Notes under the pieces: model-generated
The model's database searches: none
What the model saw: the letters and a program-made list of their open reading frames with translations, nothing else
Told to the model about the DNA's origin: nothing
Program-made: the position numbers and the translations under genes
Assembly (NCBI RefSeq): GCF_000691805.2
Contig: NZ_DF820485.1
Span: 1 to 64,000 of the forward strand
From: Weissella oryzae SG25
GTDB lineage: Bacteria > Bacillota > Bacilli > Lactobacillales > Lactobacillaceae
Direction: 5' to 3'
DNA: 64,000 bases
Part shown: positions 40,717 to 43,873 of the stretch, piece by piece
How the letters are laid out: every line of letters starts with the position of its first letter
Numbering within the stretch: the first letter of the stretch is position 1

Positions 40717-40792
40717 GTGCAAATCTAAGTTAGTATTTTAACAGGGCTATTGAATCGGAATTGAATTTTCGCTATACTTATCTAGAACTGTT

Positions 40793-40881
40793 GGAGACAT
40801 GGCAGAGTGGTAATGCAGCGGACTCGAAATCCGCCGAGCCGATGTTGAGTCGGTGCACGGGTTCAAATCCCGTTGTCTCCT
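40793..40881 (+). tRNA. tRNA-Ser (CGA)
   Basis: This is a class II tRNA with a long variable arm: acceptor GGAGACA with TGTCTCC, anticodon arm GCGGA-CTCGAAA-TCCGC (anticodon CGA), variable arm CGAGCCGATGTTGAGTCGGTG, T-arm CGGGTTCAAATCCCG. The 3' end is the likely attachment site of the neighbouring integrase-bearing element. Confidence 0.95.
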
Positions 40882-40907
40882 TACAAAAGGTAAGTTGGTT
40901 GAATATG

Positions 40908-40940
40908 AAAGCCCCTAAACGTTGATTTAGAGGCTTTTTA
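40908..40940 (+). terminator. terminator after tRNA-Ser
   Basis: AAAGCCCCTAAA pairs with TTTAGAGGCTTT (one mismatch), followed by a T-run. Confidence 0.8.
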
Positions 40941-40947
40941 TTTTTTC

Positions 40948-41076
40948 TGAAACATCCTGAAACATTCTAATACAACACAGCTGAAACCACAGTGAAACCA
41001 CGAAACTAATAAAATTTTGCTGATTTATAGCCATTCTTACAATGTGTAAATAGCGATTACAACCATTTTGAAACCA
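40948..41076. repeat. five TGAAAC-type repeats, candidate integrase arm sites
   Basis: TGAAACAT occurs at 40948 and 40958, and TGAAACCA at 40982, 40993 and 41069. Spacings of 10 and 11 bases within pairs match one helical turn. They lie between tRNA-Ser and the integrase stop, where attL arm-type sites are expected. Confidence 0.6.
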
Positions 41077-41079
41077 AAT

Positions 41080-42258
41080 TTACCATAGATTGCGAACCAT
41101 CTCTTGTCCTTTTTGAGCTTGTTCATCTAATAGGGCGCGATAATATTTGTTAATAATCTCAATAGTGTGTCCAGAAATTTGAGCAATGTACTCAATAGGC
41201 ACGCCAGCCGCTATCAATATTGTATCGTGTGTGGCTCTCAGAGCCTTAGGGGTAATCTTTTGACCATCTCTAGTAGTCCAGTTACACTCTGGCACACCGG
41301 ACTTCTTTAAAGCTAAAAATAGAGCTTTCTGCGTCATCTGTGGCGTAGATAGAATACGAGATGATTGTTTGTCACCCAGTTTCCTAAAAATCAAATTAGT
41401 AGCTCTTGAAATATGGCTATTATTTATATCCATTTTCTTGATTCGCATAAACACGGTTAATCGCTCAGCAAGCTCAGTTGAGATTGGAACATAACGATCC
41501 ATACCGTTTTTAGGATAACGTTTAAGCTCATCCGTTTTATTAACGTAGTTATTTTGAATATGAATTTGCTTTCTTTCAACATCAATATATCGGAACTCTA
41601 AAGACTTTGCTTCATTAACACGAGCACCAGTTTCAAGCATTATCAATAACGCTAAATATTCCTGGTATTTAGGCTCATTTGGGACACTGTATAAGTAATT
41701 ACGTAGAAGATTAGCATCATTGCGAGAGAGGGCAGGGACGGCCTTTTTAAGACGGCTATCAGTGCCAGTAATTTTAATGCGGTTTTCATAGGGGAATGGT
41801 GTTTTACGAATAACACCGTTATATTCTGCGTCTGAAAACATTCGCTGCAACATTGAACGATACTTGCTGTTTGTGCCGGTAGTGTAGATTTTACCTAAGA
41901 TATTGAAAAATCTTTGAGCGAGCTGTTTTTGACCGTCCCAATCAATCATCTTAGTCTCAGGTAATTCTTTTTCTAAACGGCGCCGCAAGTTAAAATAATC
42001 TTGTTTTGAATTGACCTCTAGTGTTGGTTCAATCATATCCTGAAACCATTTCCAGAAATACTCTGAAATCAAACTAGAGGCATCAAATTTTGTGTACCCC
42101 CTATCAAAATCATGGTTAAGGTCATCTTCAACTTTTCTTGCCTCTGCTAAAGTATTAGCATATATACGAGCAGAGGCAGTTAGAGTACCGTTAATTCGGC
42201 GATGAACACGAACCATGTACTTACCAGCAAATTTACCGGTTGCGACTTTTTTAATCAT
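41080..42258 (-). CDS. int: phage-type tyrosine integrase
   Basis: This is a 392-residue site-specific recombinase. N-terminal arm-binding domain (YMVRVHRRINGTLTASARIYANT), SAM-like core-binding domain, and catalytic domain with Arg in MLETGARVNEA, the box II segment LRATHDTILIAAG, the SGHT His, and Tyr in NKYYRALL. The ATG at 42258 was chosen: GGAGAAGAAAG precedes it, and the longer frame adds an unlikely N-terminus. Its 3' end faces tRNA-Ser. It belongs to a different element from the prophage at 1-22 kb. Confidence 0.92.
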   Translation of the reverse strand: MIKKVATGKFAGKYMVRVHRRINGTLTASARIYANTLAEARKVEDDLNHDFDRGYTKFDASSLISEYFWKWFQDMIEPTLEVNSKQDYFNLRRRLEKELPETKMIDWDGQKQLAQRFFNILGKIYTTGTNSKYRSMLQRMFSDAEYNGVIRKTPFPYENRIKITGTDSRLKKAVPALSRNDANLLRNYLYSVPNEPKYQEYLALLIMLETGARVNEAKSLEFRYIDVERKQIHIQNNYVNKTDELKRYPKNGMDRYVPISTELAERLTVFMRIKKMDINNSHISRATNLIFRKLGDKQSSRILSTPQMTQKALFLALKKSGVPECNWTTRDGQKITPKALRATHDTILIAAGVPIEYIAQISGHTIEIINKYYRALLDEQAQKGQEMVRNLW

Positions 42259-42354
42259 CTTTCTTCTCCAATTAGATCCCCGGCAGGAGTACATATATTG
42301 GAAAGTAGTTTATAGACTTGCTAAGGTCTAAGTTAGACTATCACTAAAGCGTGT

Positions 42355-42434
42355 TATAATTTAGATACGAGTTGAGATAACATATACTGTTACCTTCAAG
42401 CTATTCTTGGTTTCGCGGCTAGGAATAGCTTTTT
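42355..42434 (+). ncRNA. tandem small RNA gene, copy 1
   Basis: TGT-TATAAT (extended -10 box, TATAAT at 42355-42360) is followed by a predicted start near 42366. The 5' hairpin is GATAACA-TATAC-TGTTACC with one mismatch. The terminator hairpin AAGCTATTC with GGAATAGCTT (42398-42431) carries the loop sequence TTTCGCGG (42411-42418) and is followed by TTTTTATTT. The same layout is repeated twice more downstream. No reading frame fits. Confidence 0.65.
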
Positions 42435-42453
42435 ATTTACGCTGAACACATGT

Positions 42454-42536
42454 TATACTCTAGGTACAAGTTGAACCAAAGCTGATTGTCTTTGGTCTAA
42501 GCTACTTTCTGATTTTGCGGTCGGGAGTAGCTTTTT
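42454..42536 (+). ncRNA. tandem small RNA gene, copy 2
   Basis: TGT-TATACT (-10 at 42454-42459), predicted start near 42466. The 5' hairpin ACCAAAG (42475-42481) with CTTTGGT (42490-42496) is perfect but differs in sequence from copies 1 and 3. The terminator stem AAGCTACT with AGTAGCTT (42499-42533) carries the loop TTTTGCGG at 42513-42520 and a T-run. The loop is perfectly complementary to the 5' hairpin loop of the small peptide mRNA at 42683-42690. Confidence 0.7.
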
Positions 42537-42560
42537 ATTTACGCTAAATGTAAAGCGTGT

Positions 42561-42648
42561 TATACTTTAAGTACGAATTGAGTCATGTATGGCTATGCCT
42601 ACATGTCTAAGCTACTTTCTGGTTTTGCGGCTGGGAGTAGCTTTTTTT
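42561..42648 (+). ncRNA. tandem small RNA gene, copy 3
   Basis: TGT-TATACT (-10 at 42561-42566), predicted start near 42573. The 5' hairpin CATGTA (42584-42589) with TACATG (42600-42605) and inner GGC-TAT-GCC is perfect. The terminator stem AAGCTACT with AGTAGCTT (42609-42643) carries the loop TTTTGCGG at 42623-42630, followed by seven T. Copies 2 and 3 share the terminator almost base for base while the 5' hairpins differ. Confidence 0.7.
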
Positions 42649-42663
42649 GTGTCCTTGATGTGG

Positions 42664-42719
42664 TATTATTTAATCTGTGCTACCGCAAAAATAGGCACAG
42701 ACTGGAGGCATATAGATAT
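42664..42719 (+). promoter_or_regulatory. promoter and 5' hairpin of the small toxin-like mRNA
   Basis: TGG-TATTAT (extended -10, TATTAT at 42664-42669) predicts a start near 42674. The transcript begins with a hairpin: TCTGTGCTA (42674-42682) with TAGGCACAGA (42692-42701), one bulged G, and loop CCGCAAAAA. The ribosome-binding site GGAGG (42704-42708) touches its 3' side. The loop bases CCGCAAAA (42683-42690) complement the terminator loops of small RNA copies 2 and 3. Confidence 0.6.
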
Positions 42720-42806
42720 ATGGCTCAATTCGTAATCGCAGTGTTAGCTGGTTTAGCAGTAAACCTAATAAGCTACATTGCTAAGTGTTGGATAGATAAG
42801 GACTAG
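42720..42806 (+). CDS. Fst-like hydrophobic toxin peptide (28 aa)
   Basis: This is a 28-residue peptide starting MAQFVIAVLAGLAVNLISYI and ending AKCWIDKD: one membrane helix and a charged tail with a Trp, the layout of Fst/Ldr-type I toxins. GGAGG lies 11 bases upstream. A longer in-frame ORF from 42585 would run through the third small RNA and is rejected. Sequence similarity to known Fst is only general, so the call rests on size, topology and the adjacent complementary RNAs. It probably acts at the membrane. Confidence 0.6.
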   Translation: MAQFVIAVLAGLAVNLISYIAKCWIDKD

Positions 42807-42822
42807 TCCTAATTTATTGAAC

Positions 42823-42854
42823 AGGCCCTATTGTTATTGCAGTAGGGCTTTTTT
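42823..42854 (+). terminator. terminator of the toxin-like gene
   Basis: GCCCTA pairs with TAGGGC within a longer imperfect stem (AGGCCCTATT with AGTAGGGCTT), followed by six T. Confidence 0.82.
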
Positions 42855-42864
42855 GTTGTGTTTT

Positions 42865-42888
42865 AAACTGGTCGAAATCGACCAGTTT
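42865..42888. promoter_or_regulatory. perfect palindrome, possible operator
   Basis: AAACTGGTCG-AAAT-CGACCAGTTT is a ten-base-pair perfect inverted repeat with no T-run on the plus strand. It could be a regulator binding site or a weak terminator. The rest of the 42.89-43.12 kb gap holds one more short hairpin (CCTGTC-GATT-GACAGG at about 43032-43047) and no gene. Confidence 0.4.
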
Positions 42889-43120
42889 AGAGAGACTTTT
42901 AACGTAGTCGTATAGTATAGATAAGTTTCAAATTACACATTGGATATTTTAAGATGTCACGATAGAACTTATTATTCTTGAGAGTTATCGGTAAGTAGTT
43001 TTTAAATAAAAAATGTCTGACTTTTTGGTTAGTGATTATGTATCCTGTCGATTGACAGGAATGAATTTATTGCGCTAGCTGGTCTATTTTATCCATGACA
43101 CAAGTATGTAGATTGAGATT

Positions 43121-43873
43121 TTAAGATTTTTGTAATGACACAGTTTGAATATTAAGGATTAACAGTTGTCCTTTTTCTAGTGTGATTTTCATAGATTTAT
43201 TGGTATCAGGCGATAAATCAGCATTAACTTGATTATCCGCGGTTCTTAGAGTGCCACCACCTGCAACTAGAGTTACGGTATACGTACCCGGTAAAACATC
43301 TTTACCAACTCTGTATTCTCCGGCAGTTAAATTACCATTTGAAATTGCAGGGCTAGCCTTAAGTGCTTCCAAATGGGCACTTGGAAAGCCCATGATTTTA
43401 ATTGAACTTCCTTTTGGTAAAATTGCCCGATATGATGTTACATTTGAGTCTACAGCACTGTTGTCCAGCTGTGGCGAAGTTAAAATAATGTCTATTAAGC
43501 CGTCACTAGAGATGATGTTTCCAGAGCCCGATGGACTTGATAATTCATAGATACCAGCCGCAATATTGCTACCGACATGGTAAGATTTATCATTTTTAAT
43601 ATCAGTAGTCATTGCCGAATTTGTATGTTTTAAAAGATTATTACCCACAACAGTTGATTTACGCTTAGTAAATTGGTCTGTATGATTCGATGAAATTGGC
43701 TGGTTAGGTGAAAGTGTTGCAATTAATAGTCCTAACATAATAAAGGTAAGGCCACCCCAGCCAAAATACCGATAAATACGTTTCATTGGTTGCTTGTTAT
43801 GTAGCTTTTGATAAAAGTGGGTCGTTAACATAATTAAACCAATTAGTACGCTGAAAATAAAAAAACTCCCCAT
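43121..43873 (-). CDS. membrane-anchored protein with duplicated beta domain
   Basis: This is a 250-residue protein with two N-terminal membrane helices (about 3-20 and 36-53), then a Ser/Asn/Lys-rich linker and two related beta modules: YHVGSNIAAGIYELSSPSGSGN and YRVGKDVLPGTYTVTLVAGGGT. Each module is followed by a stretch ending in IKIMGF or LLILNI. The C-terminal part should be outside the cell. It may be cargo of the integrase-bearing element. No function can be assigned. Confidence 0.72.
   Translation of the reverse strand: MGSFFIFSVLIGLIMLTTHFYQKLHNKQPMKRIYRYFGWGGLTFIMLGLLIATLSPNQPISSNHTDQFTKRKSTVVGNNLLKHTNSAMTTDIKNDKSYHVGSNIAAGIYELSSPSGSGNIISSDGLIDIILTSPQLDNSAVDSNVTSYRAILPKGSSIKIMGFPSAHLEALKASPAISNGNLTAGEYRVGKDVLPGTYTVTLVAGGGTLRTADNQVNADLSPDTNKSMKITLEKGQLLILNIQTVSLQKS

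Follow-up and report, generated by a model that had tools for sequence, protein, structure and literature searches.

What is being conserved when three tandem hairpins change their sequence from one copy to the next? The question is raised by an array of three hairpin-bearing units within the window (the whole stretch of 64,000 nucleotides of Weissella oryzae SG25 DNA that was analysed). The preliminary description of this array took the changes to be compensatory and the folded RNA, as opposed to a peptide or a DNA site, to be the object of selection. The stretch that it covered ends before a peptide gene at 42720-42806 which gives the array its meaning. With that gene in view, the array very probably belongs to a type I toxin-antitoxin locus adjoining a phage-type integrase gene; the antitoxin RNAs of this locus would be encoded upstream of the toxin and on the same strand.

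Three putative small RNA genes lie upstream of a hydrophobic peptide gene

The array comprises three putative small RNA genes of 70-80 nt each, arranged in tandem on the plus strand; sequence and folds give every unit its own -10-like motif, followed by a 5' hairpin and then an intrinsic terminator. Directly 3' of unit 3 and on the same strand is the peptide gene, with a -10, 5' hairpin, Shine-Dalgarno (SD) sequence and terminator of its own. The ORF list gives this frame as the last part of a longer, mechanically called ORF. The features are as follows.

40793-40881: tRNA-Ser, beside the integrase gene
41080-42294, minus strand: tyrosine integrase (PF00589), divergent from the array
42355-42360, plus strand: extended -10 of unit 1 (TGT-TATAAT), from sequence and pattern search, absent from the generic promoter scan
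42361-42435, plus strand: unit 1 RNA gene, start approximate, 5' hairpin at 42374-42396
42398-42431, plus strand: unit 1 terminator, from fold and terminator scan, loop TTTCGCGG at 42411-42418
42454-42459, plus strand: extended -10 of unit 2 (TGT-TATACT), from sequence and pattern search, absent from the generic promoter scan
42460-42537, plus strand: unit 2 RNA gene, start approximate, 5' hairpin at 42475-42496
From 42499, plus strand: unit 2 terminator, from the fold and not the terminator scan, loop TTTTGCGG at 42513-42520
42561-42566, plus strand: extended -10 of unit 3 (TGT-TATACT), from sequence, pattern search and promoter scan
42567-42647, plus strand: unit 3 RNA gene, presumed cognate antitoxin, start approximate, 5' hairpin at 42581-42608
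42572-42590, plus strand: part of unit 3 antisense to the toxin start region
From 42609, plus strand: unit 3 terminator, from the fold and not the terminator scan, loop TTTTGCGG at 42623-42630
42664-42669, plus strand: extended -10 of the peptide gene (TGG-TATTAT), from sequence, absent from the generic promoter scan
42675-42700, plus strand: 5' hairpin of the putative toxin mRNA (CTGTGC...GCACAG), loop CCGCAAAA at 42683-42690
42704-42708, plus strand: Shine-Dalgarno sequence GGAGG of the peptide gene, from sequence
42720-42806, plus strand: hydrophobic peptide of 28 residues, MAQFVIAVLAGLAVNLISYIAKCWIDKD, the presumed type I toxin
42823-42856, plus strand: terminator of the putative toxin mRNA, from the terminator scan

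Among the units, the generic scans reported a promoter for unit 3 only and a terminator for unit 1 only. Promoter-like sites were in no excess over shuffled sequence (2 versus 1.7), and on the minus strand between 42280 and 42880 the scans found no promoter-like or terminator-like site. An Rfam search of the window returned only two tRNAs at gathering score, leaving the array units unmatched.

All three 5' hairpins were recovered, in sequence and in folds, where they had been placed and with the stems claimed for them. The stem pairs GAGATAACA with TGTTACCTT in unit 1 (8 pairs, one mismatch), ACCAAAGC with GTCTTTGGT in unit 2 (8 pairs, one bulge) and AGTCATGTATGGC with GCCTACATGTCT in unit 3 (11 pairs), and the hairpins end 0-2 nt ahead of the terminator stem. 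The units do look like small RNA genes and not peptide genes, as had been proposed, each with its own -10 and terminator. To call the terminators nearly constant was generous, since over a 57-nt block units 1 and 3 are only 63% and 82% identical to unit 2.

Three further observations concern the flank of the array. An imperfect palindrome at 42786-42823 covers the stop codon of the peptide, its overlapping 22-nt arms being 82% complementary, and a perfect 12-nt inverted repeat (TAAACTGGTCGA/TCGACCAGTTTA) stands at 42864-42889, past the toxin terminator. A 250-residue frame adjoining the array (43121-43873, minus strand) has an N-terminal membrane segment by eye and no Pfam match at E 0.001.

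The locus is one of a family in Weissella

The search for loci combined R1 and R2, models of the unit, with a DNA pattern, with A3, a profile of the peptide, and with R3, a model built on the leader only. Fifteen loci with an adjacent unit were found in 9 of 28 Weissella genomes: four in the genome of the window (G000; the window locus, C2, and three more, C9, C6 and C4), three in G025, two in G002 and one each in G005, G009, G016, G021, G026 and G027. Units and peptide gene share a strand at all 15. More than one unit is present at four of them (three units at C2, two each at C9, C4 and G025a), and the tandem form is therefore the minority.

Within the genus R3 gave 18 matches of at least 25 bits, 15 of them with a neighbouring unit of matching loop (partly so at G002b). 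Five of the 18 fell outside the training set, two with a matching unit and three without. The matches that lack a matching unit loop stand outside the 15 loci: beside G025 C6:78943 there is, by eye, a unit-like stretch whose 5' part fits but whose loop does not, next to a broken peptide frame, and no unit was seen by eye beside the leader matches at G022 C54:83304 and C28:7021. The other 12 of the 30 genus matches of R3 scored below 25 bits, and such sub-threshold matches were not all taken as loci. Among the 46 genus matches of R2 listed, 12 weaker places were inspected, which comprised toxin loci (L105, L107, L108 and L113), an orphan unit (L106), a possible unit (L109) and stretches that look like ordinary terminators (L110-L112 and L114-L116). 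Two-mismatch pattern matches in G010, G013, G018 and G023 showed no such locus, and the five records with the unit pattern in a contig collection, one from Weissella confusa and four from other phyla, were taken as chance.

Broken frames occur beside a unit or unit-like stretch at two places. The frame at C9 (L006 1700-1850) has no start codon, and pairing at the start site is weaker there; at G025 C6:78943 (L146 1401-1640) the frame contains an in-frame stop and the loop pairing is missing. The two R3-scoring leaders in G022 that lack a matching unit upstream (L125 1501-1650 and L143 1101-1850, both reverse complement) have short frames and nearby hairpins, and one of them looks tandemly repeated; they perhaps represent a related system with another antitoxin layout.

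Outside the genus, A3 and R3 were run over 397 genomes of the family in 40 genera. A3 matched 77 of the 397 at E up to 0.1, with a best score outside Weissella of 20.7 bits; this profile is insensitive, giving the real G025b locus 19 bits and leaving the G025c, G002b and G021 peptides unlisted. R3, under stricter filters, scored best at 26.5 bits in G079 and 25.0 bits in G117, where the longest upstream matches were 5 and 7 nt and the leader-peptide layout was not seen in the lines examined. Because A3 is insensitive and the R3 filters were stricter, these searches do not prove absence outside Weissella. In viral contigs, further leader patterns gave either nothing or 39 places, the best at 24.8 bits and none scoring like a true leader.

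The peptides are candidate toxins and their leaders share a predicted hairpin

Peptide frames of 27-34 residues, hydrophobic by eye, stand behind an SD at 14 of the 15 loci. None of the 11 peptides searched against Pfam (of 15) reached a cut-off, the best match being DUF1056 for G025b (16.5 bits, cut-off 22.2); the G025c peptide gave 13.4 bits with Fst_toxin (cut-off 36) and 11 bits with Ldr_toxin (cut-off 27). Five peptides searched against NCBIfam likewise gave nothing at cut-off, the window peptide scoring 15.6 bits with a type I toxin model (cut-off 60). Matches in PHROGs were weak only, the best (E 0.006) being of unknown function, and a holin family was weakly matched by three of seven peptides (best E 0.053). 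A PDB search with the peptides returned nothing useful. Values of pN/pS ranged from 0.22 to 0.97 over 10 pairs among 5 of the 14 unbroken peptides, with pN near pS in two of these pairs (0.90 and 0.97).

The leader hairpin was examined in an alignment (A5) of 13 of the 15 leaders, G025b and G025c being omitted as MAFFT misplaced their stems. All 65 cells of the stem are paired, 14 of them with both sides changed, and the covariation score is 0.631, compared with 0.345 in shuffled alignments and at most 0.162 in slid versions. Two of five covariation measures were not above shuffles; pairs with both sides changed numbered three, a value reached in 165 of 500 shuffles, and further pair types numbered four, as against 6.5 in shuffles. 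The alignment as a whole indicates that the leader hairpin is under pairing selection.

The 5' hairpin of the units is maintained across the family

Compared with 1000 dinucleotide shuffles each, the 5' parts of window units 1, 2 and 3 gave p values of 0.35, 0.24 and 0.03 (Fisher 0.06), so that the three hairpins alone do not prove a conserved structure. In a set of 21 units drawn from the genome of the window and from other Weissella genomes, with L109 left out, the 5' hairpin gave a mean z of -1.29 (Fisher 3e-6), with p<0.05 in 9 of 21. The hairpin has 7-11 pairs and ends 0-5 nt before the terminator in 20 of these units, and all of the 5' arms differ. The odd one out is the G022 unit, whose 5' part was folded past the start of the terminator; it was kept in the shuffle counts and trimmed for the half-swaps.

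Given a MAFFT alignment of all 21 units made from sequence only, RNAalifold predicted zero pairs, and the 5' stem was for that reason tested by shuffles and by half-swaps. In the latter, own halves folded at a mean of -8.06 kcal/mol, versus -3.86 to -4.06 kcal/mol for swapped halves over five split points; none of 20,000 permutations was as low at any split point, uncorrected for relatedness, and the unit's own 3' half was the best partner in 11 to 13 of the 21. A subset of 16 divergent units behaved similarly (-8.10 versus -3.61; own half best in 10 of 16; 0 of 20,000 permutations). Window unit 1 taken singly shows nothing in this test, with -2.9 for its own half and -3.2 and -1.2 with units 2 and 3.

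The earlier claim that pairing is kept as the sequence changes is therefore borne out by the family of 21 and not by the three window units alone. Selection on the folded RNA, which that description went on to propose, is supported family-wide as regards the 5' hairpin, though more mildly than for the leader hairpin, and the arms of the hairpin are also antisense to the toxin start and change with their target. The observation is partly confirmed, and the interpretation stands in part. The SD/start region of the toxin itself folds somewhat better than its shuffles (mean z -0.93, Fisher 0.002), and the unit hairpin may thus partly mirror a hairpin in the target. As the 5' arms and loop of a unit are antisense to the toxin SD and start, they change with it, and we read the sequence change in the 5' hairpin as largely retargeting, and not only as compensatory drift within the fold.

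Each adjacent unit is complementary to the neighbouring message at two sites

Duplex prediction places two antisense sites between unit and toxin message. At the first, the 5' part of the unit covers the SD to about codon 5; at the second, the loop of the unit terminator faces the loop of the message 5' hairpin. In the window, units 2 and 3 have the loop TTTTGCGG, whose reverse complement is the leader loop CCGCAAAA. The tests on 15 pairs used only the toxin-adjacent unit of each locus; separate tests covered C2u1, C2u2, C9u1, C4u1, G025a1 and the G022 orphan unit.

A match of at least 7 nt between leader loop and terminator apex was present in 14 of 15 own pairs versus 3 of 210 non-own pairs, two of the three being G005 and G021, which have a common loop. 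The summed loop match of 109 was reached in none of 100,000 permutations (maximum 90; kinship of loci uncorrected). With the register fixed over seven positions, Watson-Crick pairs fill 103 of the 105 cells, where shuffles average 56.6 and never exceed 84; a single position shows as many as four pair types. The 7-nt match is perfect at 14 loci, where it occurs as 13 different sequences (14 different over all 15); the weak pair, G002b, has 5 consecutive nucleotides and a G-U. The permutations leave relatedness uncorrected, but inheritance by itself does not produce an inverted match. The strongest covariation in the system is intermolecular, between the unit terminator loop and the loop of the toxin 5' hairpin, and not within the 5' stem.

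The first site behaves in the same way. The SD/start duplex averages -34.5 kcal/mol in own pairs as against -16.9 kcal/mol in the others; for 14 of the 15 messages the best partner is the own unit, and none of 100,000 permutations was as low (kinship uncorrected). The exception is C9, the locus whose frame lacks a start codon, where the own unit gives -21.7 and the C6 unit -25.9. In the genome of the window, the leader loops at C9, C6 and C4 differ and the terminator loop of each adjacent unit matches over 8 nt; each of the four leaders forms its most stable predicted duplex with the unit next to it (-59.0, -43.0 at C9, -59.7 and -64.6), with the C6 unit a close runner-up at C9 (-42.1).

These pairings bear on two other accounts of the units. 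The first is that they function by their own fold, through type III-like protein binding or as decoys, the antisense being incidental. Retention of the hairpin across sequence change would suit such a role, and tandem RNA repeats before a toxin gene are superficially type III-like (PMC4147584, in excerpt), but a two-site complementarity that follows the loci one by one far beyond permutation, a peptide of 27-34 residues that is too small for type III RNases, and units that each have a -10-like motif and terminator and number more than one at only 4 of 15 loci make this very unlikely. The second is that three hairpins fell before terminators by chance and have no function; the three 5' stems on their own reach only p 0.06, but the family-level results for leader hairpin, loops, start duplex, unit shuffles and half-swaps reduce this to a negligible probability.

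In the favoured toxin-antitoxin reading, the peptide gene would produce a small membrane-active toxin from a message that starts with a hairpin presenting an 8-nt loop just ahead of the SD. Unit 3 would be transcribed as an antitoxin RNA of 70-80 nt, as probably would units 2 and 1, in weaker or older copies. The terminator loop of the antitoxin, complementary to the toxin 5' loop, would kiss it, after which the 5' tail and 5' hairpin would pair across the SD and the start codon into the first codons; this pairing may block translation, expose the message to double-strand cleavage, or both. Until the target is met, the 5' hairpin of the unit would probably hold the antisense region in a compact form and stabilise the RNA. 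The loop of 7-8 nt would then serve as a specificity code that separates co-resident loci.

Upstream and orphan units fit less well

At the start site, the 5' match to the C2 leader is strong for unit 3 (-37.5), fair for unit 1 (-25.2) and weak for unit 2 (-17.1), and the 5' part of unit 2 fits the C4 leader better (-21.9) than the resident one. The unit 1 loop has one mismatch to the toxin loop; that of unit 2 is fully complementary, its 5' part being only weakly antisense. As full duplexes, both units have the C2 leader as the best of 15, narrowly over C4 (-42.5 versus -39.6 and -41.6 versus -41.4). When the RNAs are allowed their own folds, the pairing gain is -17.9 kcal/mol for unit 3, -16.0 for unit 1 and -4.5 for unit 2, from which it follows that unit 1 may still act on the toxin message. 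Units 1 and 2 may be copies of an earlier date, may serve as weak back-ups, or may be antitoxins directed at related toxins.

The upstream units at two other loci of the same genome, C9u1 (L006 1516-1594) and C4u1 (L008 1362-1441), have a common loop, TTTCGTCG, and different 5' parts. No leader was found that matches this loop perfectly, the nearest being C6 with one mismatch, and a single exact pattern for the leader loop that they call for, CGACGAAA, found no such toxin in viral contigs. Both units could be weak antitoxins for C6. Two further places carry a candidate unit: L106 560-652 (minus strand, G022), a unit-like RNA gene with no toxin seen in 300 bases downstream, and L109 436-515 (G027), a possible unit left uncounted, with no toxin seen in the 258 bases to the contig end.

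A bolder interpretation is that the arrays form a small immunity register against the toxins of competing mobile elements. Each unit would be an antitoxin RNA with its own loop address of 7-8 nt, the last guarding against the resident toxin and the upstream orphans holding the addresses of toxins met earlier; if true, a prophage or its host could lose, replace or resist the toxins of other elements. We regard this as distinctly unlikely, the fit of C9u1 and C4u1 to C6 with one mismatch having lowered its probability.

The loci are associated with integrases and viral contigs

A divergent tyrosine integrase is directly adjacent at 7 of the 15 loci (the window, C4, G025a, G005, G027, G016 and G021); at the other eight, none of the longest frames, two of which were scanned, looked like an integrase. 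Over the 200-300 bases compared, the G025a, G027 and G016 loci recur unchanged in viral contigs from IMG/VR that are 39 to 45 kb long. The window and G027 loci had no DNA similarity match in plasmids or phages. As to attachment sites, no exact repeat of at least 14 nt from 40781-41085 was found elsewhere in the window.

Between integrase and array there is another conserved stretch, GTTTAAAGAC.TACTC.GGTCTG.TA.AAT, followed by a hairpin with a T run. It was seen at L034 (reverse complement, about 1370-1480), L035 (1390-1480) and L028 (reverse complement, about 1370-1490), and a similar start, TTAAAGACATACTCAGGTCT, lies near L008 1300. It is perhaps a further small RNA or a control region of the integrase.

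With an integrase beside the units at 7 of 15 loci, they might instead be independent phage small RNAs, with the integrase or host genes as conceivable targets, the likeness of unit 3 to the leader going back to an old inverted duplication, and the antisense is indeed collinear with the toxin leader as in an inverted copy. An unselected duplication would decay, yet 13 different 7-nt loops are matched perfectly, and the two loci with broken frames pair more weakly, C9 at its start site and G025 C6:78943 in its loop, which renders this highly improbable. The family is best read as an integrase- or prophage-associated, type I-like system, sometimes tandem and with a highly variable loop address, and its role may be to help keep a prophage.

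Comparison with known systems

The type I-like reading has its nearest published logic in par pAD1 and its nearest published layout in DinQ with AgrA/AgrB, an analogy that rests on excerpts of the papers cited in this section. The par pAD1/Fst locus of Enterococcus faecalis similarly has a small toxin peptide and a short antitoxin RNA, a loop-loop first contact with a second contact at the SD/start, and an SD-sequestering stem in the message, and its homologues are often on mobile elements (PMC7472228). Its two RNAs run towards each other and overlap where they share direct repeats and a terminator. The Weissella antitoxin, by contrast, lies upstream on the same strand without overlap, and the proposed contact of its terminator loop is with the 5' hairpin of the toxin message.

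This resemblance could mean that the loci are ordinary Fst/Ldr loci of the par pAD1 kind, merely rearranged, which would be a sub-case of the toxin-antitoxin explanation. The common logic of loop-loop contact, SD/start site and SD sequestration (PMC7472228) argues for it, antisense to the SD/start and complementary loops being found here in sequence, as does the weak match of 1 of 11 peptides to Fst_toxin and Ldr_toxin. Against this, none of the 11 of 15 peptides searched attained a Pfam cut-off, and the convergent promoters, overlap, direct repeats and shared bidirectional terminator give way to an upstream same-strand antitoxin with separate terminators, which makes contact at the 5' hairpin of the toxin and not at its terminator. 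On balance we consider it unlikely, if still a possibility of some weight.

In the DinQ-AgrB system of E. coli (with AgrA), two antitoxin RNAs, a presumed tandem duplication, also lie beside one toxin; AgrA and AgrB each have their own promoter and terminator, one copy is degenerate and 31 nt at the 5' end are antisense (PMC3567139). They are encoded opposite to dinQ with complementarity in its long 5' UTR (PMC4147584), whereas the Weissella units are on the same strand and complementary at the translation start; the divergent antitoxin that binds in a long 5' UTR, at a distance from the start, the pattern of DinQ, ZorO and TisB, is not found here. The ZorO-OrzO/ZorP-OrzP loci of E. coli O157:H7 share a non-overlapping antitoxin RNA, OrzO and OrzP having 18 nt of complementarity at the 5' end of which a few nucleotides discriminate paralogues, but are divergent, have apparently one recognition region and give each toxin its own antitoxin gene (PMC3919570). 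In type III (ToxIN) loci, too, the toxin gene is preceded by RNA repeats in tandem and by a terminator (PMC4147584), but their toxin is a predicted RNase and their antitoxin an RNA of short repeats; here there is a tiny peptide and the units are separate genes, with neither an RNase toxin nor repeats within one RNA.

Type I antitoxins are stated to be encoded on the strand opposite the toxin (excerpt of PMC12390103). The Weissella loci have a small, mostly hydrophobic peptide with SD and start codon (the start being absent at C9) and, judged from complementarity, a non-coding RNA directed at the toxin mRNA at 15 loci, with both on one strand at each; under that definition the family is a variant, type I-like with the strand feature lacking. 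This all-on-one-strand arrangement differs from the type I systems that we found described, and in the open-access literature (Weissella type I toxins; tandem, same-strand, multiple or orphan antitoxins) the titles and opening abstract lines of the matches listed contained nothing with it.

The 15 natural pairs of toxin and antitoxin RNA, with a 7-nt address that is nearly always different, form a resource for the study of specificity, cross-talk and co-evolution. If the pairs work as read here, an antitoxin RNA gene does not require an opposite or divergent position relative to its toxin, and loci of this kind would escape any search limited to the opposite strand.
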